Virus record (IMG/VR): IMGVR_UViG_3300031702_000038
Location: 1 to 28,793 of that record
Source of the DNA: a virus
Direction: 5' to 3' (one strand)
Length of the DNA stretch: 28,793 nt
Below are positions 6,463 to 21,464 of the stretch, piece by piece. Position 1 is the stretch's first letter. Each line of letters starts with the position of its first letter. The position numbers were made by a program, and so were the translations under genes. The notes beneath the pieces are model-generated. The model did no database searches and was not told the DNA's origin. It was given only the letters and a program-made list of their open reading frames with translations.

Positions 6463-6471
6463 TTGGCTTCC

Positions 6472-9400
6472 TTAGTTTTGCTTAAAACGGCTTTGGGCAT
6501 CTTTATATAAATCTAAAGCTTGTAAATACGCCCCATCGTTGGAGATAGAAACCCCATACTCTTCAAAGTAATCTCTTTCTACCTTATCTTTATAAACTTT
6601 AGGAACCCTACCCCAAGCTGCCCTGTCTACGGGATTAAATTTCGTTGTGTTTTCTATTTCACCCATTTCAGCTTGAGCAGGTTCCAGTGCTTCTACCTTA
6701 ACTACTTTCATCATTTCATGAATAGCAACTATCTTATCCTCTTTTGTGGTCATGTTTTTGTAATAGTCTGATTCAAATAGTGACCCCATAATTTCTTCTA
6801 TTTGCATAGCCATGTGAGATTTTACGGCTGCATCATATTGACTATCGCCTTTACGAGGGGATATAGTCCACAGGGGATATCCCATATCAACGAGTTCTCT
6901 TTCTATTTTAGTAGCATTAGGTAAAATACCTGCGCCTGTCATTTGAGTTAGATAAGGTGCTTGTCTTCTCATAATGCCAGCTTGCCTTTTCCCATCTATA
7001 ACCTCTGTCCTAGTAGAGGAAACTTGAGCAGGTAACGACTCTGATATATAGGGTTGATTCTTTATGATCTGATTTTTAAATGCATCTAGCCCTCTTTCAA
7101 CACCACCTGATCCTGTTATTACATTGGGGTTACGTACCACATTCATCTCTGCATCAAAAGCCCCAAGCACATCTCGGAGTACTCGACCTGTAGTAGCATA
7201 CTGTCCCACCATTTCTCCTGCAAACTTGCCAGCCCTTTCTCCAAACTTCTCTCCTGCTGTACCCTCCATTCCTTTCAGCGCATCTTGTGCTGATTCTGAC
7301 ATCCAATTCATGTATGCGTTGGCCTGTGAAGCACGTACTTGTGCGCCTGTAAAACCTTGCACTATCTTTGCTACATCTACTTCTTTTTCTTCTGCTCTAC
7401 CTTCATCACTTGCTTGAAATAACATCTCACCTGCCGCCATATAGAAAGGTAGGGGGAAGAAAGCCATTATATTCATGGTAGAATTTTGCCCTTCTATCCT
7501 CATTTCATCTACAGGTACATCTCTGTTATTTGCTCTGTAGTAGTACGCTGCTATTAAGGCTCCTGTACCTATTGCGGAGTCTGCTACATCTTTCTTAGCT
7601 TGTTTATTTAATCTTACGTAACCTTTTTGCCCCTTTTTTCTCATATTCCTAGAAGAATACATTCTCACTAAACCCCCTATTGAACTAGCAGGGGAATACT
7701 TATATTGAAAACTCAATGCACTTGCCATAAATCTAGCAAAAGGAAATGCTGCTGTACCTATAACAGGAACAAAAGGTAGAGTTTCTACAAAGGATACAAA
7801 TTTATGTGCAAGGCCGCCTTTAGGTACATCAGCAAAAGTAGCACGTAGTGAATCATCTACTGCTTTTTTTACTACGCTTGTAGGTATAGGCTTCTTTGAT
7901 CCAAGTATCTGCATAATGTCCGTACCAGAACCTCTAAGCTGCCTCTCAATACTCTCCACAAAAACTGCGGATCTAATAAACTGATCCTGTGCTATGTTAA
8001 GAGAGTTAAGCATAGTTACTACTTTAGGTAGTGTGTTAGTACCTGCTTCTTGAGTAGTACGTAATAAAATTTGATGTAATGCAGGGTGACCTTCCAATAA
8101 TGCCTCTGCAGTTTCTCTGGTTACTCCTGTGTCACCTAACTTACCTATCAAACCAAACGAGTTAACGAATATATCCTTTGTACCTTTTACAGTGCCAGCT
8201 ACAGATGCGTTGCCCTCTCCTACAGCCCTTACTGCTTTACCTAGACCATCAGCTGTATTCAACAAAATTTCACTAGCAGTATCAAACATTACATAGTTTG
8301 TTGCAGAGAATGCATTACGTGCAGAGGTTACAGGCTGTGATGTTAATATAGCCCTTCGTATTCTGTCCCATTTAGATGCTGTTTCTCCTATACTTAAATT
8401 CGGTATAACAGAACGACCAAATGTTGCATTGTGTATGTCTTGTGCAGATGGTTCTTCTAGGAACTCCAATACTTCTGGTGCTAGTTTTTGTATCTTCCTA
8501 ACAGATTTGGATAGTTGGCTTAGTCCAGTAAGAACCAGAGCAGATTGATTCTGTGTGAATCTAGTAATCTCTCCAAACTCAGCTATATCTATATTATTAT
8601 CTGCAAGAGTTTTATTAAGTGCAGTTACAGACTTATTAAAATCCCCAATGTCTATACCAGCATCTGTTATTAACCTTGATGTGTCACCACTATTAATGCC
8701 CAAAGCAAGTGCATCAAATACTCTGTACATTGCATCTGATACTTTTTCTCCTTTAGCAAAGTCAGGTTGGAAATGCGGCACAGCTATCATAAGCTTACCT
8801 ATAACTGCCTTAGCTTCTTTCAATACCTCTGGTGTTACTTGCGATTGCAAAGCGTCACTGGAAGGGCCAGCATCGTCCATCATACCTCTGGCATAAACAA
8901 CATCAAATATAGAATCCATACCAGCTAGGGATTCCTCTATCCTAGCAGCCGCATCAATGTTGTCTGCATCAGGTGTGTATGCTGCGGTTACTTTTGATTT
9001 AAGTTTATCTGCATAAGTTTTATCCCTAGCACCTAGCCAAAGACTACCCATGTTGATAGTACCACCTATAGCACCACTAATGGCACCTGCCCATACAATG
9101 TCGCTCCAATCTTTTTCAGTACGCATATCCGCTTCTACTTGAATAGATTGTAATGCTGACTCATGCATCATACCTACTAGGCTCTCACCAGCTACTGCTC
9201 CTGCTATCTTACCTGCATTGGATCGTATGGCATAGCGTAGTGCTGTACGTGCAGCCATGCGTCCTCCTACGAGCTTCAGACCCATAGAAGCACCTAAGGT
9301 GGCTACGTTGGTAGCATCAAACACACCAGCCATTATGCTGTCGGTTATTACGTTCCAACTACTTCCCCCACCTTCTTCGTGGAAAGATGGCATGTCAGTG

Positions 9401-10041
9401 TAAGCAGTATAAAGAAAACCAAAGTTTTGTTTCTGTTCTTCTTCTGCGGTAGACATCCATGCAAGGCCCAGACCTGTCATGCCCATGTTATGTTCCATCC
9501 AGCGCATCTTGCTAAAGAACCTATCAGCGTAGTCACTTTTAGATTCACCTTCTTTTTTAGCACCACCCTGTCCGTAGCGATCTACCATGTACTCGCCCAT
9601 GCTTCTTTGTACGGCATCTGTATTAAAGAAGTCTATAGTAATCTGACTGTTATCAATTAGATCACCTTCAGCATCCCCTAAGTCTTCTATCGTGTACAAG
9701 CTTTGAAGTTCATCAACTCCTGTGTCTACATCTGTGGCTACTGTGCCTGAGTTAACTGAGGGTTCGGAGTCACTCCACAAGTTTAGAAATTCATCCATTT
9801 CGGATTGATCATAATTTTCTTCGCCAGATTCCATAAGACTAATTGAAGAATCCTCAGGCTTTGCCATAAGGCTAGTAGCCTCTGTAGAAGAATCATCGGA
9901 AATAGTATTACCAGAGTCATTAAAAAACTGATCAATCTTTAGTTGTTTTTCCTTGTCTGCTTCCAGTGATTCATTACTGGTAAGCCCATCAAGCTGTACT
10001 TCATCTAAAGAAGCATCTTCATTATCTATTAGGTCACTCAT
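6472..10041 (-). CDS. Large internal virion / DNA ejection protein
   Basis: 1189 residues, the largest protein here. In size and position it corresponds to T7 gp16, the internal core protein ejected to form the DNA conduit across the envelope. I see no lytic transglycosylase motif such as T7 gp16 carries at its N-terminus; the first ~140 residues are instead acidic and low-complexity. Several hydrophobic, glycine/alanine-rich segments follow, including about 275-300 (AGKIAGAVAGESLVGMM), a nearby WAGAISGAIGG segment and FFPLPFYMAAGEMLF further on, compatible with membrane insertion. SLMAK (57-61) resembles a motif in three neighbouring ejection proteins. It is separated by nine bases from the genes on each side, as in a tightly organised operon. 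The function is inferred from size, order and hydrophobic pattern; I do not see homology strong enough to name the gene. Confidence 0.7.
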   Translation of the reverse strand: MSDLIDNEDASLDEVQLDGLTSNESLEADKEKQLKIDQFFNDSGNTISDDSSTEATSLMAKPEDSSISLMESGEENYDQSEMDEFLNLWSDSEPSVNSGTVATDVDTGVDELQSLYTIEDLGDAEGDLIDNSQITIDFFNTDAVQRSMGEYMVDRYGQGGAKKEGESKSDYADRFFSKMRWMEHNMGMTGLGLAWMSTAEEEQKQNFGFLYTAYTDMPSFHEEGGGSSWNVITDSIMAGVFDATNVATLGASMGLKLVGGRMAARTALRYAIRSNAGKIAGAVAGESLVGMMHESALQSIQVEADMRTEKDWSDIVWAGAISGAIGGTINMGSLWLGARDKTYADKLKSKVTAAYTPDADNIDAAARIEESLAGMDSIFDVVYARGMMDDAGPSSDALQSQVTPEVLKEAKAVIGKLMIAVPHFQPDFAKGEKVSDAMYRVFDALALGINSGDTSRLITDAGIDIGDFNKSVTALNKTLADNNIDIAEFGEITRFTQNQSALVLTGLSQLSKSVRKIQKLAPEVLEFLEEPSAQDIHNATFGRSVIPNLSIGETASKWDRIRRAILTSQPVTSARNAFSATNYVMFDTASEILLNTADGLGKAVRAVGEGNASVAGTVKGTKDIFVNSFGLIGKLGDTGVTRETAEALLEGHPALHQILLRTTQEAGTNTLPKVVTMLNSLNIAQDQFIRSAVFVESIERQLRGSGTDIMQILGSKKPIPTSVVKKAVDDSLRATFADVPKGGLAHKFVSFVETLPFVPVIGTAAFPFARFMASALSFQYKYSPASSIGGLVRMYSSRNMRKKGQKGYVRLNKQAKKDVADSAIGTGALIAAYYYRANNRDVPVDEMRIEGQNSTMNIMAFFPLPFYMAAGEMLFQASDEGRAEEKEVDVAKIVQGFTGAQVRASQANAYMNWMSESAQDALKGMEGTAGEKFGERAGKFAGEMVGQYATTGRVLRDVLGAFDAEMNVVRNPNVITGSGGVERGLDAFKNQIIKNQPYISESLPAQVSSTRTEVIDGKRQAGIMRRQAPYLTQMTGAGILPNATKIERELVDMGYPLWTISPRKGDSQYDAAVKSHMAMQIEEIMGSLFESDYYKNMTTKEDKIVAIHEMMKVVKVEALEPAQAEMGEIENTTKFNPVDRAAWGRVPKVYKDKVERDYFEEYGVSISNDGAYLQALDLYKDAQSRFKQN

Positions 10042-10050
10042 ATATTCACC

Positions 10051-11784
10051 TTATGCTGTTTTGGTTTTACTCATGAGGCCCGTAGTACTTGCCTGACTGT
10101 TAAAGCTTTTAATTAATTGACTACCCAGTATTTCTTTAAATATTGTGGAACCATTCTTACGTTTAAACTTAATTATATAAGATTGATCGGGATCTATGGT
10201 TGATACTTTATCCACCTTTTCATCAAACACCACGCTAATTCCCTGTTTTAAATAATTCTTAGCCTGTGCCATATTTATAATAGAACCAGACGAGTTTTCT
10301 CCATCCCAGTTAGAAGCTCCTCCTGGTGCTTTCATTTCTAATTTTGACCTATCATCTTTAAACATATCCTCTGTTACTGAACCTAGATCATTAATTTTAC
10401 GATACTCTTTTTCCTCCCTTGCAGCAGCCTCTTCCTGCCCATCTATTACTGCCAGCATCATAGTATAGCTTGGGCCAGTGGAACCTTGTGTGGCTAAGAG
10501 ATATCTTTCAGTAGCGTTTGCCCTAGCTTGTAGATATGTTTGTCTTGCTGCGTCAGATCTCTTACCTACAAATACAGGTTTTTGTCCTCCATCAGCAGTC
10601 TGAACTAGTTTATAATTACTATTATCTGTACCTTGTAATTTTATTAGTTCGTCTTGAAACATGGTGTCAAAAGCAGTACTAAGAGAGCTTATAGATTGCC
10701 TCTGACTAGCACCTGATATCATACTAGTAAGGTCAACGTACTGTAACTTGTATTGATCTACTTTAGATTGATAAAATTCTAACTTTTCTGGATCTGCAGC
10801 ATCTCCCTTTTTCTCTTCTTCCGTGTACTTATGTTGAAATAACATTATGCCACTTTTATAATCATCAGGTACGTTGATCATTTGCACTGTCTTTTCAGCG
10901 TTTGCAACCTGAGCTTTCAATACTTTTATTGAAGCATTATTATCTAGCTTCCACTCACCAACTACTAGATCATGTTCAGCTTTTATTCTACGTACCTTAT
11001 CTTCTTCTAATAGAATTTTTTTATTTATTTCATCCCGTTCCCCATCAAAGGTTGCAGCATCCAATTGTAACTTAAGCAGATTAATGTTAGTTGGCCTAGT
11101 GTCGGATAGGTATTTAGAAAGTTTCTTAGCCTCTGAAAATGATAAACTTTGCTGTAGGTCTTTAGTTTGAATAGTACCTGAGACTTGGTTGGCATCATCA
11201 TATACCATGTTACCTGTTCCAGCAGCTACTACATCCTTTACATTAATACCCATACCAGCAGACATCTTTGCAGCTTGTTGGTCATATCGGCTATTGCCGT
11301 TGCCAGTTGCAACCGAACCATTATTTAAATAAGAACCTAATATGCTATTATTCTTTGGGGCAATGTAATAACTTTCAGCAGCATCTTTATCAGGGCGACC
11401 CTGTATAACAGTGGTAATGTAATCTTCCCATGACGCACTTGAAGGTTTACCTGCTACGTTTACCCATGAAGCAACGTCTGTTGTAGGATCACCAAGGCTC
11501 TTTGCATCACTCACAGCTTTTATAAAGTTTTGAGTAGAAGTTTTGCCACCCTTTAATACTAGTTTGATTTGATTATTAGTAAAACCCTGAGCGTCTAACT
11601 GACTTCCCAGTTCCTTTAGAGTCTTATTCTCAGCCCTATACGCCTTTGTAGCTGCTTTACCTTCTGCTATACCAGCTTCAAGATATCGTTTAGCGTCTTT
11701 GTCTGCTGTATCTGACTGCTCTTTAACATTATCGGATAAGGCCTTAAGCGCACCTGTTGCAAAACTACCTAAATTAAAACCCAT
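10051..11784 (-). CDS. Helical internal virion protein
   Basis: 577 residues, predominantly polar and helical. A charged coiled-coil-like region at about 250-350 includes EEDKVRRIKAEHDLVV and a lysine/aspartate-rich stretch around DPEKLEFYQSKVDQYKLQYVD. There is no signal peptide, and the N-terminus (MGFNLGSFATGALKAL) is mildly amphipathic. It sits directly before the 1189-residue ejection protein, the place T7 gp15 holds before gp16, so an internal core or ejection role is likely. Its start overlaps the preceding stop (TAATG). The C-terminus ends in TTGLMSKTKTA, sharing the GLMSK pentapeptide with the C-terminus of the upstream protein. No enzymatic motif is visible. Confidence 0.65.
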   Translation of the reverse strand: MGFNLGSFATGALKALSDNVKEQSDTADKDAKRYLEAGIAEGKAATKAYRAENKTLKELGSQLDAQGFTNNQIKLVLKGGKTSTQNFIKAVSDAKSLGDPTTDVASWVNVAGKPSSASWEDYITTVIQGRPDKDAAESYYIAPKNNSILGSYLNNGSVATGNGNSRYDQQAAKMSAGMGINVKDVVAAGTGNMVYDDANQVSGTIQTKDLQQSLSFSEAKKLSKYLSDTRPTNINLLKLQLDAATFDGERDEINKKILLEEDKVRRIKAEHDLVVGEWKLDNNASIKVLKAQVANAEKTVQMINVPDDYKSGIMLFQHKYTEEEKKGDAADPEKLEFYQSKVDQYKLQYVDLTSMISGASQRQSISSLSTAFDTMFQDELIKLQGTDNSNYKLVQTADGGQKPVFVGKRSDAARQTYLQARANATERYLLATQGSTGPSYTMMLAVIDGQEEAAAREEKEYRKINDLGSVTEDMFKDDRSKLEMKAPGGASNWDGENSSGSIINMAQAKNYLKQGISVVFDEKVDKVSTIDPDQSYIIKFKRKNGSTIFKEILGSQLIKSFNSQASTTGLMSKTKTA

Positions 11785-12305
11785 TACTGACTCCTTTTAC
11801 TCATTAAACCTGCCGACTCTTCGGGTGCATCCATAGTATCTTCTTGCATAGGTTCTGTTTGCATAGGTTCTGCTTTATTAGGAACATATGCAGGAGCTTC
11901 ACCTAGTATTAAGCTGTCTACTAAAACATCAATAGACTCAGGACTAGGAATATCAGAGTCTTCACCCCCTAAACTAAATTTAATATTTGCTTCTTCAGAC
12001 TGCAATGCTAGATACTCTACTAGTACAGGGGCTGCTAATAACCCTACATCTAGTGTATGCATACCCTCCATCACTGCTGCTGTCTGAAGTGCATTAACTA
12101 TAGTTGATATAGCTACTCCAGCTTCTACTTGATCTAGCAGTGGGCCTAATAATTTAGGCTTAGCAAACTGTCCTATATAAAAATCTAGTGCCTCTACTAC
12201 AGTATTATACTTAGGGGGATTTTCCCAAGGTTTAGATCCTACTTCTCCAGTAAGAGATTGTCCTGGAATGGATGCATCCATAACATTAATAGCTTCATTT
12301 GCCAT
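11784..12305 (-). CDS. Conserved small virion protein with GLMSK tail
   Basis: 173 residues. The N-terminal part has an extended proline-containing segment (IPGQSLTGEVGSKPWENPP) leading into two or three helices (about 34-110), then a flexible acidic Pro/Met-rich tail with a repeated EPMQ element and a final SAGLMSKRSQ. I recall similar PGxSLT...PWExPP proteins among structural genes of marine phages, but the role is not established. The tail motif recurs at the end of the next protein. It overlaps the following gene by TAATG and the preceding 64-residue gene by 11 bases, indicating coupled translation. Probably an internal or scaffold-associated virion protein. Confidence 0.65.
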   Translation of the reverse strand: MANEAINVMDASIPGQSLTGEVGSKPWENPPKYNTVVEALDFYIGQFAKPKLLGPLLDQVEAGVAISTIVNALQTAAVMEGMHTLDVGLLAAPVLVEYLALQSEEANIKFSLGGEDSDIPSPESIDVLVDSLILGEAPAYVPNKAEPMQTEPMQEDTMDAPEESAGLMSKRSQ

Positions 12306-12489
12306 ACGTATTCCTTTGATTTCTAATAATCTTTACATAATTAGCAATAGTTTGTTTAGGATCATTATTGGTTTTAACAGAAGGTGAGGGGGTAACCCTG
12401 CCAGCTAGTCCCTTAGTAGTATCAGAAATTTCATCAGATATTAAGTAGGGTTCAAGGCTACGCATTGCGGTTATAACGTGCTTACTCAT
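12295..12489 (-). CDS. Small hypothetical protein in ejection operon
   Basis: 64 residues, not recognised. It is mildly basic with no signal peptide or membrane segment, and ends in a helix-like KIIRNQRNTYGK. The start is backed by a ribosome site (AGGAGC) just upstream, and the gene overlaps the 173-residue gene by 11 bases. Lying between two virion genes, it may be a minor structural or chaperone protein. Nothing in the sequence tells more. Confidence 0.6.
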   Translation of the reverse strand: MSKHVITAMRSLEPYLISDEISDTTKGLAGRVTPSPSVKTNNDPKQTIANYVKIIRNQRNTYGK

Positions 12490-12512
12490 ATTTAGCTCCT
12501 TTCATTTTGTTT

Positions 12513-14540
12513 CTATACCCACCCATCTAGTACAGTACCTGTTAGATTAGTAGTTAGTATTCCCATAATGCTGCTACCTAAACTTGATGATTGCGCAGCC
12601 TTAGATTCTAATGCTGCTGCATCTACTAGTGCTGCGGCTGATATTGAAGAGGCCGCTATTTTTGTCATGCGCTCCATTTCACTATCTGCATTCTTATATG
12701 CCCAGTCCATTTCATCTCGTTGTTCTTGCCACAGATTGTTATATGCTACATTACTTATATCCAATACAGCTTTAGCGTTTACTTCATTAGCCCTGTTTAT
12801 AGCAGCAGTATCTGCCGTAGCTATCTGCCTACGCCATTGTGCATTAGACTGATTAATAACCATACTGTTACTAGCATTAAATTGATCTCTTTGATTTTTA
12901 ACTTCGGTATTAAATTTACTCAACGCATTGGACTCACCTGCATTGAATTGGCTCATGGCATTCTTTTGAGTTGCATTAAACTGGGATACACTACTGGTAA
13001 GGTTAGAAAAAAACTGATCTGTTTGATTCTCAGAAGTAGCATTAAATTGCATAGAAGCATTTGCTGCGGCTACATCAGATAGTATAGTAGATACACTAGA
13101 CTGTGCTTTAAACATAGTTGCCTGTTGTTCCGAAGATAAGTTTGCCATATCCATATCAAGAAAGTTTTGTGCGCTTTGAACCGCAGCTTGCTGTCTATTA
13201 TTTAAATTAGAAACATCTAACTGAGATAAAGAAGCTGCTTCTGCCATTACAACTGCTTGTCGGTTTGATAGGTTTGTTAGATTTACACTGTTAGCTACCG
13301 ATGCATTTTCCATAACAATTGCTTGATCTGCTGTGAACTGCATATTAGCTATTTCACTAATCTTGTTAGAGTTCAGTACCCGTGATTGGAAGTCTTGATC
13401 AAACTCCTGACCCATAAAAGTAGCACGTTGTTGTGCAGATAACATGGCACGTTGCTGCCTATTGTTAAGATTGGTTATTTCAAAGTTAGCGTATGTCTGT
13501 GCATCAGCAGTAGCTATAGGCAATGAAGACTCTAAGGCTGCTTGTATGAGTGCCTGACCTGCCATGCTAGATGAACCAATACCACGGGCAGCCATCTGTG
13601 CAGTCACGTTACGCATAGCCCCTGCTGCCCATGCTGGTGTATTACCTTCATCAAAGGAGGTCATTAAGGTGGCAAGCTGCCCCTGTACAGTAGATTTAGA
13701 TGATGGGTCTGCTTGTGCTGCTGTTATCTGTTCAGTAAATGCTGCTGCTTTCTGTGCATCTGCAACAGGATTAACTAACTCACCACCTTCAAGAGTACGT
13801 GTAGGTGCGCCCTCTACTTGTGTAGCTGTACCTTGTGCTGCATCTACTTGGGATACGGAAGAACCTACCTGTTGTGCGGCATTTACTTTAGAGTCATCCG
13901 ATATTTCACCTTTAGCTGCTACAAGTTTTGATGTAGAAGTTTCAACTGCTGGTACTGCTTTGGCTACAGGCCCAGTTGTGTTAGCAGATAAGGTAGGACT
14001 AGCTACAGAATTAGTAGATGTAGCCCCAGTTACTGATGCGGTAGGTAAAGTTCCTAGCGGTGTACCACTAGTTGAAACATTTTGATTATTATTAGTTTCA
14101 GTAGTTTTAACTTGAGCTACGCTACCCGTTGGTAGTCTAGGAGCTAAACTTTGAGATAAAGTTATATCTCCTATTGTACTGTTTTCATTATAGTCAATAC
14201 CTTCTGGGGGCTTCGGTGTAAGAGGTGGAGTATATCCTTTAACCATCCTAGGATCTGTCTTACCTATAGGAAGCTCACCCGGAGGAAGAACTGGCCCCCA
14301 ACTATATCTTGGTGAACCATCTTCATTGGTTCCTCCACCTTCAGAGAACATAGGAGCTACTGCTCCACCAACTGCATATCGTTTAGTAACAGCACTATTA
14401 AAAGTATTAAACTTACTCATGGCGTTAGGATTACTATTCAAATAGTTTTCAAACTGTTCTATGTCTCCCGTATGCCCAAGCTTAGATGCTACACGCATCT
14501 TCTGATCATCTGTGAAACCTGTAAATTGTTGTTGAGGCAT
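12513..14540 (-). CDS. Internal virion protein with long 11/22-residue helical repeats
   Basis: 675 residues, first gene of the ejection set. Residues 1-55 form a small helical domain ending in RYAVGGAV, a short motif common in marine phage structural proteins. Residues 70-260 are a low-complexity Thr/Ser/Ala/Pro linker. From about 356 to 570 the protein is a regular repeat. NLxxxQ-type units start at 357, 423, 445 and 467, all multiples of 22 apart, then F/SN units at 499, 510, 521, 532, 543, 554 and 565, exactly 11 apart. This is hendecad periodicity, expected to make a long straight helix or right-handed coiled coil. A helical C-terminal part follows. Position suggests a role like T7 gp14/gp15 in the ejection apparatus. 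The protein is rich in Asn, Gln and Ala with few charges. Confidence 0.7.
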   Translation of the reverse strand: MPQQQFTGFTDDQKMRVASKLGHTGDIEQFENYLNSNPNAMSKFNTFNSAVTKRYAVGGAVAPMFSEGGGTNEDGSPRYSWGPVLPPGELPIGKTDPRMVKGYTPPLTPKPPEGIDYNENSTIGDITLSQSLAPRLPTGSVAQVKTTETNNNQNVSTSGTPLGTLPTASVTGATSTNSVASPTLSANTTGPVAKAVPAVETSTSKLVAAKGEISDDSKVNAAQQVGSSVSQVDAAQGTATQVEGAPTRTLEGGELVNPVADAQKAAAFTEQITAAQADPSSKSTVQGQLATLMTSFDEGNTPAWAAGAMRNVTAQMAARGIGSSSMAGQALIQAALESSLPIATADAQTYANFEITNLNNRQQRAMLSAQQRATFMGQEFDQDFQSRVLNSNKISEIANMQFTADQAIVMENASVANSVNLTNLSNRQAVVMAEAASLSQLDVSNLNNRQQAAVQSAQNFLDMDMANLSSEQQATMFKAQSSVSTILSDVAAANASMQFNATSENQTDQFFSNLTSSVSQFNATQKNAMSQFNAGESNALSKFNTEVKNQRDQFNASNSMVINQSNAQWRRQIATADTAAINRANEVNAKAVLDISNVAYNNLWQEQRDEMDWAYKNADSEMERMTKIAASSISAAALVDAAALESKAAQSSSLGSSIMGILTTNLTGTVLDGWV

Positions 14541-14679: not shown

Positions 14680-15120
14680 TTACTTTAGTTTAATTCCACC
14701 AAGCTTACCCGATACTAATTTTGTAAGTAACCCACGCATACCAAACTTAACTACGTATACACCGATAACTAAGTACTGATACCAATCAGGCATAACAGCA
14801 AAGGATTCAAATGCTGCTGTAACTTCTGCTTGATACCCTAAGAAGGATGCTGCTATAGGAACTAGTAGTAGGGCAATCATAACCTCGTCTAAAAAAGACT
14901 TGTCCATTTGCTGCATAGCTACTAGATCTAAATTAAAATCTTGTGTCTGTCCATCATCAGCCAACTTGTTAGCTGCCCTAGCCCCTGCTGTCTTAACATC
15001 AGCGTCTGCCTGTATTCCTACAATGGCTGCTGCTGACTTAGCTTTAGCTACTTGGTTCTTACCTTCTAAGTATGTCTTACCAATACTCGCAATGGGGTTT
15101 AAGAAACTTAAGAAACTCAT
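14680..15120 (-). CDS. Holin-like membrane protein
   Basis: 146 residues. An N-terminal helical, alanine/lysine-rich part (about 10-60) is followed by two membrane segments near 81-95 (IALLLVPIAASFLG) and 113-130 (WYQYLVIGVYVVKFG), then a basic end (KLVSGKLGGIKLK). The pattern of a short soluble helix, FLDEVMIALL, a membrane hairpin with MPDWYQ in the turn and a basic tail matches proteins often annotated as holins in marine podoviruses. It starts two bases after the endolysin stop, so a lysis cassette is likely: holin pores would release or activate the endolysin. It could instead be an unrelated membrane protein. Confidence 0.65.
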   Translation of the reverse strand: MSFLSFLNPIASIGKTYLEGKNQVAKAKSAAAIVGIQADADVKTAGARAANKLADDGQTQDFNLDLVAMQQMDKSFLDEVMIALLLVPIAASFLGYQAEVTAAFESFAVMPDWYQYLVIGVYVVKFGMRGLLTKLVSGKLGGIKLK

Positions 15121-15122
15121 AG

Positions 15123-15512
15123 TTAATCCTTTAGTTCAAAGTGAGGCATATCTTGCCATGACTTCCACAGCCCACCCCACTTTAGTTTATAACCTAACTG
15201 GGCTGATGCCTGTAGCATTGAAGATGCTATGAGTGCTAGATGTAATTTATCCCAAGAAGCTTTCCCGTCAACGTAAGCGTACACATCAAGTGCTTTTCCT
15301 GATTGGTGGTAGGACTTGTTGTTGACCCCATCTGCTTTGGATACTCCATCTTCAAACAGCTTGGCTTGATCCTCGGTTGATCGCAAGCCACCAGTGCTAG
15401 GAATACCAAAATCAATATTAGAAAGCGTAATAGCGAGATCCGCAATTGCAATAAGTCTTCCATCTACACCTACTAAATTATTAATACTGTTCTTACCTAG
15501 TTTAAAGCTCAT
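15123..15512 (-). CDS. M15-type peptidoglycan peptidase (endolysin)
   Basis: 129 residues, a zinc metallopeptidase of the VanY/L-alanyl-D-glutamate or D-Ala-D-Ala peptidase type (M15), as in the T5 endolysin. The SYHQSGKALDVY motif gives zinc ligands H69 and D76; DMPHFEL gives the third ligand H124 and the likely catalytic acid D121. The domain fills the whole protein, with no cell-wall-binding domain and no signal peptide, so it needs a holin for access to the wall. It is preceded by AAGGAGAAG seven bases before the ATG and followed at once by the holin-like gene. All active-site residues are present. Confidence 0.88.
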   Translation of the reverse strand: MSFKLGKNSINNLVGVDGRLIAIADLAITLSNIDFGIPSTGGLRSTEDQAKLFEDGVSKADGVNNKSYHQSGKALDVYAYVDGKASWDKLHLALIASSMLQASAQLGYKLKWGGLWKSWQDMPHFELKD

Positions 15513-16042: not shown

Positions 16043-16318
16043 CTACCATTTTATTTTATTACTCCAATAAGCTGCACTAGTTTTACCCTTTGCAATGTTC
16101 TTAGCGTGTCGTGCTTTAAAAGATTTACGTTTAGCTTTCATTGCATCTGACTCACCAGCTTTAGGCTTACCTGCTGTGCTAGCGCCTTTCTCACCGAAGC
16201 GTATCATTCGATCTTTACCATCATCCTTGATAAGAACTACATGAGATTTCTTACCTTTAGAAGAAGCTTTAGGTTTATTATACCCTTCAAACTTCTCCCC
16301 TCTATATTCTATAGCCAT
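16043..16318 (-). CDS. Conserved basic protein (DUF5872-like)
   Basis: 91 residues. The order YRGEKFEGYNKPK, SHVVLIKDDG, MIRFGEKG and a C-terminal KARHAKNIAKGKTSAAYWSN matches a small conserved family seen in marine phages and some large DNA viruses, which I believe is listed as DUF5872. The function is unknown. The first half looks like a small beta-barrel-like domain and the second half is a lysine-rich helix. Its ATG overlaps the stop of the zinc-ribbon gene (TAATG). It belongs to the run of small basic proteins between the exported cassette and the endolysin. Confidence 0.75.
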   Translation of the reverse strand: MAIEYRGEKFEGYNKPKASSKGKKSHVVLIKDDGKDRMIRFGEKGASTAGKPKAGESDAMKAKRKSFKARHAKNIAKGKTSAAYWSNKIKW

Positions 16319-16401
16319 TACTTTTTCCCCTTAGTGCAGTTCCTGCATACATTATGCCCTGCTTTAACATCATACGAACCACAGATTTTGCATATGACCA
16401 T
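16318..16401 (-). CDS. 27-residue zinc-ribbon micro-protein
   Basis: A very short frame with two CxxC pairs (C4/C7 and C19/C22) around a GSYDVKAGHNV hairpin, the minimal arrangement of a zinc ribbon. It ends in a basic KGKK. It overlaps the upstream stop and the downstream start, both as TAATG, so it is coupled to its neighbours on each side, strong support that it is translated. It may bind nucleic acid or a protein partner. Confidence 0.65.
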   Translation of the reverse strand: MVICKICGSYDVKAGHNVCRNCTKGKK

Positions 16402-16619
16402 TATACTTTACCCATAAGGTAGGCACTGAGGCCTCCTAGAATGGCTGCTAAGGCTAATGCACCTGCAGCCATACCTTTGCCCTTAGCTAACTGTAACTCT
16501 TGCACAGCCAGCCTCTCATTAAGCTTAATCATGGTACCCGTCAAACTCTCAACATCTTTAGTGAGTTGAATAACTACGTGTACTAACTGTCCTGCTTCAA
16601 AGTCTGACATACCTGACAT
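16401..16619 (-). CDS. Small coiled-coil protein with C-terminal membrane anchor
   Basis: 72 residues: a helical, heptad-like part (about 10-45, VIQLTKDVESLTGTMIKLNERL) and one hydrophobic segment at 50-70 (MAAGALALAAILGGLSAYLM). This tail-anchored layout is like small phage lysis-associated proteins of the XhlA or antiholin type, though I see no sequence match that proves it. It sits between the membrane-anchored coiled-coil gene and the small basic genes, upstream of the endolysin. It could help in lysis control or act at the inner membrane for another purpose. Confidence 0.6.
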   Translation of the reverse strand: MSGMSDFEAGQLVHVVIQLTKDVESLTGTMIKLNERLAVQELQLAKGKGMAAGALALAAILGGLSAYLMGKV

Positions 16620-16632
16620 TATGTAAATCCTT

Positions 16633-17196
16633 TTAATTAGCTAACGGGTTATCTAGTGAACGCTGTAACTTCTTATTCAATCTTGTTTCCAGATCAGTAA
16701 TCTTTCTCTCTACATCTTCACGGATAGTGTCAGACTTCTGTACGTAATCTTTCTGTAGCTGGTCACGCTTACTTTCAAAGCGACCTTCAGCTGTATCTAT
16801 GGTAGCCCTAACATCTTCTTCAATACCTGAGATGTCATCCTCTACCTTATCTATAATCTTTTCTTGCCTGTTGATATCATCCCTAATGGAGTTCTTAAGG
16901 TCTTTTATGGTGATGTACTGTCCTTCTGAGGTATCCTTAATAGAGGAGATTTCATCCTTTAGTAGGGCAAGTGTCTTGTCTATTACGGCAAACTTCCCAT
17001 CCATGACAGCGATACGCTTATCATAGTCTGAGAGATCTGGTGTAACAAACTCACTGATCCTTGCTTCCATACTAAGGTATCTTTGGTAAGCTTCAAAGCC
17101 TCCCCATAGACCACCAACTATTGTACCGATTAGTGGTACTACTAAGAGTAGCTTACTACCGCCTAACTTAACACCACCATACTCTATCTCTGCCAT
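16633..17196 (-). CDS. Membrane-anchored coiled-coil protein (spanin-like layout)
   Basis: 187 residues. A short MAEIEYGGVKLGG head is followed by one membrane segment (about 14-34, SKLLLVVPLIGTIVGGLWGG) and then a long charged coiled coil to the end (residues ~55-180). The start of this protein (EIEYGG, GGSKLLL) is one I recall from many marine phages, with unknown role. The layout, with a short cytoplasmic head, a membrane segment and a coiled coil reaching the periplasm, is that of an inner-membrane spanin, and the lysis genes are nearby. No neighbour has a lipobox to be its outer-membrane partner, so this remains a guess. It starts one base after the exported 138-residue gene. Confidence 0.65.
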   Translation of the reverse strand: MAEIEYGGVKLGGSKLLLVVPLIGTIVGGLWGGFEAYQRYLSMEARISEFVTPDLSDYDKRIAVMDGKFAVIDKTLALLKDEISSIKDTSEGQYITIKDLKNSIRDDINRQEKIIDKVEDDISGIEEDVRATIDTAEGRFESKRDQLQKDYVQKSDTIREDVERKITDLETRLNKKLQRSLDNPLAN

Positions 17197-17197
17197 A

Positions 17198-17614
17198 CTA
17201 TCCCCCTAACTGTAGCCGTCTAAGGGCGTTTAATTCTGTTTCTAGCTTCATTATCTCAAGACGTTTTTTACTTAACTCTAGCTCGTAAAGTGTGTTGCAG
17301 TTTATGCGCTCTTTAGGTGCATTCAGTGGCATGATGATCCTAGCAAACACACCAAGATCTTTTGACTTTGGCAATGCACTAGAGCTAGACCACAGGCTGG
17401 TCGCATTGTTAATGATGCCCGTTACACCAAACTCTAGGTTGATCGTGCCACCTATGGCATTGGAGCAATCCATATCGCCCGTCTTAAACTTATCTGACTG
17501 ATAGCTACCACTACTGCTTGGTAGTTGCAGAGATAGTGAGTTATTTGCAAGTACATTGGTGCTTAACATCAGTAGTGATAGAAAAAGCACATATCCTGCA
17601 ACTAGCCACTTCAT
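17198..17614 (-). CDS. Exported protein with signal peptide, last of cassette
   Basis: 138 residues with a Sec signal peptide (charged start, hydrophobic 4-20, cleavage likely after VLA23). The mature part has a Ser-rich segment, a TGDMDCSNAIGG motif, beta-type strands (INLEFGVTG, LGVFARIIMP) and then a C-terminal helix (LELSKKRLEIMKLETELNAL). Two cysteines, C50 and C106, could form a disulphide. I recall similar signal-peptide proteins in other marine phages but know no function. It overlaps the gene before it by ATGA. It probably acts in the periplasm or outer membrane; no lipobox is present. Confidence 0.65.
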   Translation of the reverse strand: MKWLVAGYVLFLSLLMLSTNVLANNSLSLQLPSSSGSYQSDKFKTGDMDCSNAIGGTINLEFGVTGIINNATSLWSSSSALPKSKDLGVFARIIMPLNAPKERINCNTLYELELSKKRLEIMKLETELNALRRLQLGG

Positions 17615-17970
17615 TTAATTCTCGAACAAATCTTTGACGATACTGTCGCCCCAGCCTGTACTTGTGACACCGAACAAATGTACTCGACCGAACCAAGAGA
17701 CAGGTTGCTCACATAAACATCAAAGGCTAGCGTGTCTAAATATTCCATAGGTATGATCGTGTATTGAGACACAAACGGAATGGGTTCCCACTCATCGTCA
17801 AATACACCGATCTCATAATATGAAACATCTGTCCTTTTGTTAAAAAGGTTCATCGTTGTAACCGATATACCTGCCATAAACGACTCAGTAAACACTGGGT
17901 AAGTCGGTGTCATCTCATGGGCCATAGCATTACCAAAAGGTAACAGCGCCAAGAGCAGGATAGCTTTCAT
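17611..17970 (-). CDS. Exported beta-rich (Ig-like?) protein
   Basis: 119 residues from the ATG at 17970. An upstream in-frame ATG at 18018 would bury the signal peptide and overlap the previous gene by 47 bases, so the later start, one base after that gene's stop, is preferred. The signal peptide is MKAILLLALLPFGNAMA, cleaved before HEMT. The mature protein alternates hydrophobic residues in a way typical of an Ig-like beta sandwich (TDVSYYEIGVFDDEWEPIPF, DTLAFDVYVSNLSLGSVEY) and has two cysteines, C99 and C115. It loosely recalls the first domain of pilus chaperones; that is an impression, not a match. It overlaps the next gene by ATGA. Confidence 0.62.
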   Translation of the reverse strand: MKAILLLALLPFGNAMAHEMTPTYPVFTESFMAGISVTTMNLFNKRTDVSYYEIGVFDDEWEPIPFVSQYTIIPMEYLDTLAFDVYVSNLSLGSVEYICSVSQVQAGATVSSKICSRIK

Positions 17971-17971
17971 G

Positions 17972-18469
17972 TTATTTTGCAATACACTCAGCCAATACGA
18001 TGGCTGTATAGCTACCACCTGGGAATGACTTACTCACCCCGTACACTGCCGTAGCTGTAGATGAGAACCATGTTGATCCAGCCTTCGTTAAGTCAAACTG
18101 AGTCGTTGAGCCGTAAGTAACCTTTGCTGCCTCATAGCCAGACATAGCCGCATCAGACGTTTTGCTCACTGCTGTTGAGCCTGTCCATGTGACAGAGTCC
18201 GATAAAGATGGGCTTGTGCTGAACGCAGTAGGGGTTGTCACCTTTGCTAAATAAGCATCTGCCAGAGTTACATCGTATCGAACAACAGGCACCACGCCCC
18301 CATCCGCTGAGGCTGTACTCAGCTTACTAGGTAAAGGGTTGCCGAACACACCATTGGTGTCAGTCGTGATTAAGCACCGAGTCTGGACATTGCCTACAAT
18401 AGGCGTGTCTGCTGCGAGAACTGATGTGGACGATGCGAGTAACACAACAGCTATTAGTAAATTCTTCAT
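17972..18469 (-). CDS. Exported beta-rich (pilin- or adhesin-like?) protein
   Basis: 165 residues with a clear Sec signal peptide (MKNLLIAVVLLASSTSVLA, cleaved before ADTP). The mature part is rich in Ser, Thr, Ala and Val with many short strands and two cysteines placed near each end of the mature chain (C32 and C162), which could close the fold with a disulphide. The composition resembles small fimbrial or coat subunits, but no family signature is visible. It lies three bases after the 287-residue gene and one base before the Ig-like gene. Base composition is richer in G+C here than in the ejection genes. Confidence 0.62.
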   Translation of the reverse strand: MKNLLIAVVLLASSTSVLAADTPIVGNVQTRCLITTDTNGVFGNPLPSKLSTASADGGVVPVVRYDVTLADAYLAKVTTPTAFSTSPSLSDSVTWTGSTAVSKTSDAAMSGYEAAKVTYGSTTQFDLTKAGSTWFSSTATAVYGVSKSFPGGSYTAIVLAECIAK

Positions 18470-18472
18470 ACG

Positions 18473-19336
18473 TTATTCCTTTGGTTCATACTGAGAGTTG
18501 ACCATCTTGGTATGCAATATCTGCTGGGCTAGTCCTGCTCTAGCGCCCTTCTTGTTATCAGGTAGTTGACCGCCATCAAGAACAACTGTCTCTTTGTAGG
18601 TGCCACCAGATAACTTCTTATCGTAATAAGGGTTTAAATTACTGTTACGAGACATTGCAAACATCAGAAGATTTTGGGAGCTTACATTTGCGTAAAGGAT
18701 TGAGTCATTGACTCCGCTTAACATGCGCTGCAACCTGTCTTTCGCTTCAGCCTTCTCTTCATCTTCTTGCTGAACATCCTCATCTAACTCGGCTTTCTCA
18801 TCAATTACATCAGCTATGTTTTCATCTGCTAATGGGTCGTAAACCTCAACCTTACTTTCGCCCATCATTGACAGCACTGCATCAATATAACCAGAGCAAG
18901 AGGGGTCTGACATAGGCGTTAGGCAGTCGTTATTGTATTTGTAGCTGTAGACCACATTGGCATCAACAACCGATCCCGTACCCTCAACGTCAATCGACCC
19001 GTCACCCCATAACTCGATGGGTAAGTTATCTATAACGAAGCCCTTAGTAATGGGTATGCCGCCTTGCAGCCCACTCCAATCATCGGTACTTGAGAAGATG
19101 TAACCACCACCTACTCGCTTGTTCCTAACATGAACTAGCATGTCATCTTCGGTGTTCTTGGTTGGCGTGTACTGATAAAACACCCCATTAATCTTTAAAC
19201 TTTGTGAGCCACTAGGCCCGATATTCATGCCCCAAGTATGTCCAGCGCCTGCCATATTCCCTGTCAGGCCGTATAGATACTCGCTGTGGGCGCTTGTTGC
19301 GTAGATCGCTAGCAAGGCAACAACTAGCCTAATCAT
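18473..19336 (-). CDS. Exported protein with acidic coiled-coil segment
   Basis: 287 residues. The signal peptide is MIRLVVALLAIYATSAHS, cleaved before EYLY. The mature protein has a Gly-rich beta domain (20-135) with ELWGDGSIDVEGTGSVVDA, then a C138...C147 pair in NDCLTPMSDPSCSGY. A strongly acidic helical stretch follows (about 165-205, with DEKAELDEDVQQEDEEKAEA) and a helical C-terminal part (205-285) with ANVSSQNLLMFAM and ARAGLAQQILHTKM. I recall the GDGSxDVEGTGSVV and NDCxxPxSDPSC elements from uncultured marine phage proteins of unknown role. It overlaps the 179-residue gene by ATGA. Envelope location is well supported; function is not known. Confidence 0.66.
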   Translation of the reverse strand: MIRLVVALLAIYATSAHSEYLYGLTGNMAGAGHTWGMNIGPSGSQSLKINGVFYQYTPTKNTEDDMLVHVRNKRVGGGYIFSSTDDWSGLQGGIPITKGFVIDNLPIELWGDGSIDVEGTGSVVDANVVYSYKYNNDCLTPMSDPSCSGYIDAVLSMMGESKVEVYDPLADENIADVIDEKAELDEDVQQEDEEKAEAKDRLQRMLSGVNDSILYANVSSQNLLMFAMSRNSNLNPYYDKKLSGGTYKETVVLDGGQLPDNKKGARAGLAQQILHTKMVNSQYEPKE

Positions 19337-19872
19337 AGTAGTAGAAGCAAACCTAAGATTGAGCCGCCTACACTAAGCAAAAACTCTTTTGTGTCGTACT
19401 TGGTAATGACTTCCTCTTTAGGGATTTCCCCTTCATCATTCTCCCAAGCGATCTTGGCATCAGCACCAATAATTCCATTATATGGGCAAGGTGTTCCAGC
19501 CATAATCATGGCATCAAATACCCGTAGGTCTTGGCACAATACCGACACAGCAGCTACCTTCATACCCATATCGTAGAGTGTTTTTGCATTCTTCAACCGC
19601 TCACAGTTAAGATCACGGGTTGTCGTTCCTGCTGAGATACCTAATATCTGTGTCTGCACCGCACCTGCCACTCCGACTGTACATGAGTCAGAGTTACTAC
19701 CACCTAAAGAGGGGGAGATAGCAGATGGTGGTGGAGACTTAAGTGTGGTGGTAACTGATCCTGTTGTGTGAACAGTACTCTTAGTAGTTGAATCTGTGAC
19801 TATTGGCTCAGCCATTACCAGCCTAGGGGCCAGTAAAGCTAAACCTATAATTACTACGAGTATTCTGCTCAT
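19333..19872 (-). CDS. Exported protein with four cysteines and C-terminal membrane segment
   Basis: 179 residues, first of the exported cassette. The signal peptide (residues 1-21, ...RLVMA, cleaved before EPIV) is followed by a Thr/Ser/Pro-rich linker. A conserved-looking domain comes next, with DSCTVGVAGAVQTQILGIS, LNCERLKNAK, MKVAAVSVLCQD and GTPCPYNG. C64, C90, C113 and C129 could make two disulphides. The last ~14 residues (LSVGGSILGLLLLL) are a membrane segment ending the protein. I recall this four-cysteine domain from other marine phages, function unknown. It starts eight bases after the halogenase stop, so the halogenase and the cassette may be one transcript. Confidence 0.66.
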   Translation of the reverse strand: MSRILVVIIGLALLAPRLVMAEPIVTDSTTKSTVHTTGSVTTTLKSPPPSAISPSLGGSNSDSCTVGVAGAVQTQILGISAGTTTRDLNCERLKNAKTLYDMGMKVAAVSVLCQDLRVFDAMIMAGTPCPYNGIIGADAKIAWENDEGEIPKEEVITKYDTKEFLLSVGGSILGLLLLL

Positions 19873-19880
19873 ACTTAATC

Positions 19881-21389
19881 CTAATCTTTATAAATGTTTT
19901 TAACTAAATACTCATAGTGAGTGGGTAGCGTATGAATAAAAGTGTCCACAATCCCTGTATAAGTAGTAAGTAGGTTTTTGTTCTCTTCCCACAATACCTT
20001 GTCCAAGGGTTCAAACATACTCTCGTCAAACAATTGCTGAGGCGACCAACCCATTCCAAGGGCAACATAGACTAAACTAGTATGTAGGTATGAATTAAGC
20101 TCACCGAAGTCAGACTCTGATAGAACTTCATGCTTGTACTCTACATCCTCTGTAACGTATCTCCAGTAAGGTGTATCTCTTCGTGATGAAAGACCATAAT
20201 GTATAGCAACGAAGTCTGATAAACTTACAACTTCATTTACTGAGTGCTTGTTAAAGTGTTCTCTATCTATACTGTTAACTAATCCATCATTACGGAGTAA
20301 CACTCGCACCAATAACATTATAAGTGAATGTGTTGTTAGCAACCCTGTGGATTCAAGGGGTTCAATGAATCCAAAAGACAATCCTATGGCTACTACGTTC
20401 TTATGCCAAGCTTTCTCATGATACCCATGTCTAAAATCAATGTGGTTAACTTCCCCGTCCCAGTTAGTTTCTTTTCTAAACTCAGCCTCTGCATCTTCTG
20501 TTGACTGGAATTTAGAACTATAAACGTATCCTGTACCTGCCCTATCCCATAATGGGATGTTCCACAACCAGCCACTACTTAACCCTTTGCAATCAGTTAC
20601 ATTATGTAGCTTACTAATCTTATCTTCTTCATCAGCATAAGGTACTTTTGCTGCTACTGCCTTATCGTTAGGGAGCTTTTCAAACTCTATAAAGGGAACG
20701 CCTAGCTTCTTTTCTATAAGTAAGGACTTAAATCCTGTACAGTCAATAAACATATCTGCAGCTAATACTTCACCTGTACTTAAACTAATACTCTCTATGT
20801 TACCCACTGCATCCATTTCAGCATCATCTACATCCCCAATAAGATGTTCAATGTCAGAGCAGAATCTACCCTTAAGGTACTGACCAAACAAAGTAGCATC
20901 CATGTGGTATGCTAAATCCTTACGTGGGTTATAACCATACTGGGGTAAAGGCTCTCCACTGATCTTGTTGTGACGAGCCATTAAACCATTTATGCTATAG
21001 TAATCACCAAAGTTCTCCACCTTAACATCATCAGGATATAACTCCCTTAAGGTAAGGAACTCAGAAGGGGATATGTCTAGCTGAGCCTGTGCTGCACTAA
21101 AGTCTCCAAAAGGATACTGGAATGTACTCCCTATATCCCTAAAGTCTGTGAACTGTATAGATGCTTTATAGGTGGCGTTACATGCTGCCATCCATTCTTC
21201 ATCCTTAATGCCTAACAGCTCCATGTAGTAATTGATCTGACCTAAAGTAGACTCCCCGACACCTATAGTATTTATAGTGTTGGACTCTACCAAGGTCAAC
21301 TTAATGTTAGGGCATTTGTGAGCTAAGGCTGCTGCAGTCATCCAACCTGCAGAACCTCCTCCTACAATAACTATCTTATTTATCTTCAT
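19881..21389 (-). CDS. Flavin-dependent halogenase (tryptophan halogenase family, viral type)
   Basis: 502 residues from the ATG at 21389, which has AGGA nine bases upstream; the 16 residues added by a start at 21437 have no homology value and run through the C-rich element. The FAD site is G10-G-G-S-A-G15. The family lysine is K75 in ATYKASI. The halogenase-specific WxWxIP motif is W274-L-W276-N-I278-P279. FIEPLESTG gives E346-S347, the catalytic pair of PrnA. The enzyme uses reduced flavin, oxygen and halide to form hypohalous acid, which reacts at the lysine with an electron-rich substrate. Marine phage relatives exist, for example VirX1 of cyanophage Syn10, which iodinates varied small aromatics. 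No flavin reductase is nearby, so the host must supply FADH2. The substrate is unknown. Confidence 0.93.
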   Translation of the reverse strand: MKINKIVIVGGGSAGWMTAAALAHKCPNIKLTLVESNTINTIGVGESTLGQINYYMELLGIKDEEWMAACNATYKASIQFTDFRDIGSTFQYPFGDFSAAQAQLDISPSEFLTLRELYPDDVKVENFGDYYSINGLMARHNKISGEPLPQYGYNPRKDLAYHMDATLFGQYLKGRFCSDIEHLIGDVDDAEMDAVGNIESISLSTGEVLAADMFIDCTGFKSLLIEKKLGVPFIEFEKLPNDKAVAAKVPYADEEDKISKLHNVTDCKGLSSGWLWNIPLWDRAGTGYVYSSKFQSTEDAEAEFRKETNWDGEVNHIDFRHGYHEKAWHKNVVAIGLSFGFIEPLESTGLLTTHSLIMLLVRVLLRNDGLVNSIDREHFNKHSVNEVVSLSDFVAIHYGLSSRRDTPYWRYVTEDVEYKHEVLSESDFGELNSYLHTSLVYVALGMGWSPQQLFDESMFEPLDKVLWEENKNLLTTYTGIVDTFIHTLPTHYEYLVKNIYKD

Positions 21390-21390
21390 T

Positions 21391-21430
21391 ATATATCCTA
21401 TATGCAACGGGGGGTGGGGTTCTGAGTAGA
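21391..21430 (-). promoter_or_regulatory. C-rich repeated intergenic element, copy B
   Basis: On the - strand it reads AACCCCACCCCCCGTTG and then CATATAGGATATA, ending at the halogenase start; the AGGA inside it doubles as ribosome site. It matches copy A at 14610-14650, which is not next to a start codon, so the shared CATATAGRATATA is not just a ribosome site. It sits in the 75-base gap between the chaperone-like gene and the halogenase. A promoter for the halogenase, envelope and lysis genes is the simplest reading. Confidence 0.55.
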
Positions 21431-21464
21431 CTACCACACTATTACATACAAGTAAAGATATTAA

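Follow-up and report, generated by a model that had tools for sequence, protein, structure and literature searches.

What does a phage do with five consecutive genes for exported proteins, and do these genes act as one system? We examined this question in the window, by which we mean the whole of a 28.8-kb virus record. Genes for a ribonucleotide reductase, an endonuclease and a Cas4-type exonuclease are found at one end. The minus strand carries structural genes, tail fibres, a tail-fibre assembly protein, a tryptophan halogenase, the cassette of exported proteins and an endolysin, the cassette being placed between the tail-fibre genes and the endolysin. Four large ORFs of structural size on this strand (879, 1189, 577 and 675 aa; 3823-14540) gave no significant PHROG match.

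The five exported genes are named here A, B1, X, Y and Z, and a sixth gene, C, follows them; all lie on the minus strand. Gene A (19333..19872, 179 aa) encodes a signal peptide, a domain with four cysteines and a hydrophobic C-terminal tail. Gene B1 (18473..19336, 287 aa) has a signal peptide, an N-terminal domain with conserved W, Y and G residues, an acidic segment and a conserved C-terminus. Gene X (17972..18469, 165 aa) has a signal peptide, a predicted Ig-like/pilin-like beta-sandwich and two cysteines (C32 and C162). Gene Y (17611..17970, 119 aa), which has a signal peptide, two cysteines and homologues in Vibrio phages, was read from an internal ATG, the longest ORF beginning 16 residues upstream. 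Gene Z (17198..17614, 138 aa) has a signal peptide, a small beta region, a C-terminal helix of 32 residues and two cysteines, and matches phrog_37374. Neighbouring exported genes either overlap by 4 nt (A/B1 and Y/Z) or are separated by 1-3 nt, and C (16633..17196, 187 aa) starts 1 nt after Z. The C protein has an N-terminal transmembrane segment (predicted N-in/C-out) and a long charged C-terminal part ending in NPL(AN).

An earlier note on this DNA had described five adjacent signal-peptide genes with SPase I sites and no lipobox, and the coordinates, leaders and sites were all confirmed. The hydrophobic leaders end in VMA↓EP (A), AHS↓EY (B1), VLA↓AD (X), AMA↓HE (Y) and VLA↓NN (Z), and none of the five proteins of the window has a lipobox. 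In a crude leader scan of 31 non-overlapping ORFs of the window, only these five were of the SPase I type, together with the membrane-anchored C. The mature proteins contain 4, 2, 2, 2 and 2 cysteines, the even numbers that the note had pointed out.

We further followed these features in the homologues, where they recur more than chance would give. A crude predictor gave a positive leader score in 84/90 A, 67/74 B1, 70/70 X, 56/64 Y and 59/59 Z homologues. A lipobox-like pattern was seen in 0/90 A homologues, and the rare matches to this pattern in X, Y or Z homologues sit inside SPase I leaders. The cysteine number was kept in A (four in 86/90), X (two in 69/70), Y (two in 60/64) and Z (two in 59/59), but it was not strict in B1, which had two in 42/74 and three in 27/74. 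The four-cysteine domain of A follows the pattern C..G..GA.QTQILGIS.G...D.NCER.K.AKTLYDMGMKVAAVS..CQD.RVFDAM..GTPCP.

The picture of five free periplasmic proteins holds for the exported leaders, but probably not for A. An uncharged hydrophobic tail ends 78 of the 80 A homologues of the six-gene type, so A is probably a C-terminally anchored membrane protein rather than a free periplasmic one. Gene C was also described correctly as the membrane-anchored protein that comes next. It has a single N-terminal transmembrane segment, with a more positive N-terminal flank in 49/56 homologues (by a crude charge rule, not a trained predictor), about 130 residues beyond this segment, and the NPL motif at the C-terminus in 56/56. 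Its coiled coil, however, is unproven, since a simple heptad measure was not above that of shuffled sequence (0.44 vs 0.44).

To what extent do the six genes belong together? A search of viral contigs seeded with A gave at least 600 candidate stretches, at least 599 of which encode relatives, and 80 loci were read. B1, X, Y, Z and C followed in that order wherever the contig was long enough. Every one of the 55 loci that extend 1.2 kb or more beyond Z has C, with other genes sometimes intervening. As this set had been chosen by A, a second search was seeded with Z. Among the testable contigs of that set, some of which are shared with the first, we found Y in 74/74, X in 68/68, B1 in 64/64 and C in 70/70, and A was present in 8/8 long contigs examined. 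The genes therefore do stay together, and homologues scattered singly were not a feature of the six-gene form. From family to family, pairwise distances correlate with r of 0.57-0.82 across 51 loci, which fits joint inheritance; shared phage ancestry alone would also be expected to give some correlation. We take A-B1-X-Y-Z-C to be one co-inherited unit, with a linkage that appears essentially absolute in these sequences. The proposed five-gene cassette was right in treating the genes as one inherited unit, but the unit has six genes, C included, and appears to be built from two modules.

The neighbours of the unit are podovirus-like, as in the window, or T4-like with DNA polymerase and UvsX genes. 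The tryptophan halogenase (19881..21437, minus strand), directly upstream of A, is outside the conserved unit and was not conserved beside the cassette at other loci. The closest DNA matches of this halogenase, which lies between the tail-fibre and cassette genes, are cyanophage halogenases at <70% identity. Among bacterial genomes, X matched only three contigs of one Rhodobacteraceae bin, and these are probably phage contigs. The unit is apparently an operon complete in itself that moves horizontally among dsDNA phages, and many aquatic phages carry it.

The two modules, A-B-C and X-Y-Z, were seen apart in other phages. We found A in ten cultured or environmental phages (pelagiphages, the myovirus Mosig, roseophages CRP-207 and CRP-810, the fosmid phage S28-C10 and an environmental podovirus), in line with the marine relatives mentioned in the note. 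In all ten, C is close to A, in most cases separated from it by a larger gene B, and X-Y-Z is absent. Two C-like genes occur in a single region of pelagiphage HTVC115P (L001:7878-8240 and 8583-9011), and a relative of the 675-aa ORF of the window adjoins the A-B-C genes of this phage. In CRP-207 and CRP-810, short lipoproteins matching the core of the A profile are encoded directly upstream of A (L006:1731-1940 and L007:5615-5875).

With tblastn against cultured phages, we observed no match for B1, X, Y or Z of the window, nor for an X consensus. The Vibrio relatives were found only by a Z consensus, an artificial average sequence, after which profiles were used to check them. Six Vibrio phage genomes match the X, Y and Z profiles in order: Bennett and pVp-1 (both T5-like), PS14A.1, 252E42.2, D81 and pVco-14. 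The E-values were 3e-6 to 0.08 for X, 8e-7 to 0.09 for Y and 1e-12 to 1e-7 for Z; the weak single scores are credible because order, size, leaders and cysteines are shared. A conserved small lipoprotein (around SGCT.N..IDTDYA) is usually found right after Z in the Vibrio phages (L094:3712-3915, L096:5149-5307, L098:5089-5256, L102:4350-4505 and L103:3616-3795), and it is also retained in Vibrio phage douglas 12A4, in which Z was detected only as a remnant. In the Klebsiella jumbo phages Eowyn and Miami, a Z match lies beside leader-bearing proteins of the size of Y and X, and the assignment of these two as X and Y is inferred only from position and sequence pattern. The six-gene unit thus appears to be a fusion of two modules that can travel separately.

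We also searched for a function of the components. No Pfam, PHROG or PDB match of the genes of the unit gave a function. A and Z belong to or resemble phrog_20531 and phrog_37374, respectively, PHROGs with no attached function, and X, Y and B1 had no significant PHROG. Profile searches against PDB, run with X, Y, Z and B1 as well as the Vibrio versions of X and Y, returned nothing significant. Y had been suspected from its sequence pattern to be a PapD-like domain, and Pfam and PDB profiles gave no support for this. Profile-profile comparison of X, Y, Z, B1 and C showed no relation to one another; the high scores seen with A were artefactual, its poly-Leu tail having been aligned to signal peptides or the transmembrane segment. 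The model of Z had low confidence (mean pLDDT 65.5), with only the C-terminal helix and the leader firm, and gave no fold match. We found no paper describing the unit in the open-access literature.

Among the genes downstream of the unit are those for small membrane proteins and for endolysins of unrelated types (endolysin PHROGs). In the window the neighbours on this side are, all on the minus strand, a 72-aa protein with a C-terminal transmembrane segment (16401..16619), holin-like by size and position only; a 91-aa basic protein (16043..16318, phrog_7595) conserved in many marine phages; the endolysin (15123..15512, phrog_465 by PHROG match); and a 146-aa protein with C-terminal hydrophobic segments (14680..15120; phrog_2524, of unknown function), which we consider a possible holin. 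The phrog_7595 protein is strongly conserved in roseophages, and cyanophage S-CBS2 DNA also matches it. With only eight query types, an endolysin homologue was found within 3.5 kb of C in 15 of 42 loci; the other 27 showed none in the vicinity of C.

A lipobox scan of the window found a lipoprotein-like ORF of 75 aa (15236..15463, minus strand; lipobox LVAC) in the +1 frame of the endolysin gene. This frame was open with a lipobox in all eight endolysins first compared, and both features occurred together in 0/2000 random-synonymous-codon trials for each. In a wider set of distinct related endolysins, 26/48 keep the lipobox frame, against 0.2% expected, and none has it in the +2 frame. The sequences are related, the start codons vary (ATG, or only GTG/TTG) and 22/48 endolysins are without the ORF, so a lineage-specific gene is likely, not proven. 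We consider it a likely overlapping o-spanin-like gene and a candidate o-spanin. It is not tied to the cassette; C was visible in only 10 of the 80 loci of the endolysin comparison, which had short flanks.

Late in infection, the unit probably forms some structure in the envelope of the host cell. The reading we favour, tentatively and at somewhat less than an even chance, is a late envelope-spanning complex, anchored by the A tail and C, that acts at the outer membrane in lysis or release. The five Sec-type exported products and C would assemble in the periplasm into one complex, held in the inner membrane by C and the A tail. The 130 or so residues of C after its transmembrane segment, if helical, would be long enough to cross the periplasm, and the Ig-like X, with Y and Z, would reach the outer membrane. 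Made late, the complex might act there when the cell is opened, destabilising or detaching the outer membrane for release, as an accessory to the spanins or in some phages as their substitute. We favour late action at the outer membrane because of the topology of C, the anchor of A and the frequent setting among lysis genes.

In contig G007, the cassette, a small transmembrane protein, an overlapped i-/o-spanin-like pair and an endolysin-like gene (this last name from sequence reading) follow one another without interruption. In the T5-like Vibrio phages, X-Y-Z lies between tail-fibre-like genes and an annotated holin/endolysin. A u-spanin-like gene between Z and C in locus L039 counts on this side too, as do the A-related lipoprotein just upstream of A in two roseophages and the lack of a convincing lipoprotein ORF in the complete genomes of the A-B-C carriers HTVC202P and S28-C10. 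Weighed against a role in lysis or release are other settings: the cassette forms an island of its own in contig G006, 33 kb from a spanin-like pair, A-B-C of HTVC202P is far from the M15 endolysin, and Z of the Klebsiella jumbo phages is away from lysis genes. The 27 loci without an endolysin match count in the same direction. So does the coexistence of spanins, seen in G007, in G006, in locus L039, where a u-spanin-like gene (lipobox and C-terminal transmembrane segment) lies between Z and C, and with X-Y-Z in pVp-1, whose record annotates an Rz-like spanin (F404_gp072). A spanin survey lists pVp-1 among the phages with two-component spanins (PMC6139136). Because canonical spanin-like genes coexist with it, the unit is not simply a spanin under another name, and a simple spanin substitute was rejected as a general account.

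The comparison with known spanins led to the same distinction. Like the two-component spanins (lambda Rz/Rz1), the unit would comprise envelope-located late proteins near holin and endolysin, and C resembles an i-spanin in its N-terminal transmembrane segment, its N-in/C-out topology (by the crude charge rule) and its long predicted periplasmic part. However, the unit includes five SPase I-type exported proteins and no o-spanin partner with a lipobox, and no sequence match to known spanins was found. Like the unimolecular spanin T1 gp11, A combines an export signal at the N-terminus with a hydrophobic anchor at the other end, but T1 gp11 is an outer-membrane lipoprotein (PMC6139136) and the A leader lacks a lipobox.

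The main rival is superinfection exclusion or receptor shielding, in which the exported proteins would obstruct receptors at the outer membrane, or the entry of DNA, and so guard the infected cell and keep progeny from sticking to debris; we regard this as possible but unlikely, and keep it chiefly because X-Y-Z follows tail-fibre-like genes in the Vibrio phages (directly, in 6/6 genomes read). The small lipoprotein that usually follows Z in these phages fits as well, and a protective trait would be in keeping with the mobility of the cassette between phages and its solitary position in G006. Llp of T5 shields FhuA and is encoded beside receptor-binding/tail-fibre genes, and the proteins of the unit are likewise exported and encoded beside tail-fibre genes. 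Llp is, however, a single lipoprotein with no homology found to the unit, whose five proteins are soluble or anchored and without lipobox; the exclusion proteins known to us are all single small proteins. Moreover, A and X are well conserved (mean pairwise differences 0.38 and 0.45), while tail fibres differ, the fibre of the window being detectable in only 7/90 loci. The target therefore looks conserved and not phage-specific.

It is improbable, in our estimate, that A-B-C is an unorthodox spanin, with A or a partner at the outer membrane and C as i-spanin, and that X-Y-Z came to lie between B and C as an independent exported module with another function. That the two modules occur apart, the i-spanin-like topology of C and the lipoprotein relative of A in roseophages are consistent with it, and we observed no convincing lipoprotein ORF in the complete genomes of the A-B-C carriers HTVC202P and S28-C10. 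Against this, G007 and G006 carry C plus an ordinary spanin-like pair, and no member of the six-gene form was missing where this could be tested.

An Ig-like or pilin-like assembly (an adhesin or fibre) on the surface of the infected cell or its debris is more doubtful still. X is predicted to be an Ig-like/pilin-like sandwich. Its high-confidence model (pLDDT 90.2) is a beta-sandwich whose best Foldseek matches were the pilin domains of PapG, FimG and CfaB, at marginal E-values (4e-3 to 2e-2). However, its VIA-align Z-scores stayed below 8, a range that the tool calls common, with generic Ig-like adhesin, integrin and CBM folds ranking first. In contrast to the chaperone-usher pili, to which these pilin domains belong, no significant Pfam pilin, chaperone or usher match was found in X or Y. 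A crude scan of the window, which is a fragment, found no large leader-bearing ORF, such as a signal-peptide usher of ~800 residues. Least likely is that these are virion or virion-assembly proteins with incidental leaders: the unit adjoins tail-fibre genes in the window, as X-Y-Z does in the Vibrio phages, but almost all homologues keep the cleavable leader and the cysteine number, the same unit is found in podovirus-like and T4-like settings that differ in their structural genes, and no tailed phage known to us assembles its virions from periplasmic proteins.

The earlier view that no known phage system explains the five genes is borne out, none having been found. Each known kind of system with which the unit was compared differed from it in a defining feature, and none of its components has a relative with an assigned function; should the lysis or the exclusion reading be proven, it would fall within an already known kind. 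That it is a phage envelope machine without a known phage counterpart, in which six co-inherited proteins form an inner- to outer-membrane structure in infected aquatic bacteria, and which arose by fusion of two older exported modules and is swapped among podo- and myoviruses, comes in our judgement just short of an even chance. The unit, which seems not to have been described before, bears on the means by which phages lacking recognisable spanins breach the outer membrane, a question that the spanin survey states as open (PMC6139136). Half of it is carried by cultured Vibrio phages, and it is hence testable now. Given its rigid conservation in uncultured aquatic phages, the unit must do something important to Gram-negative envelopes during infection.
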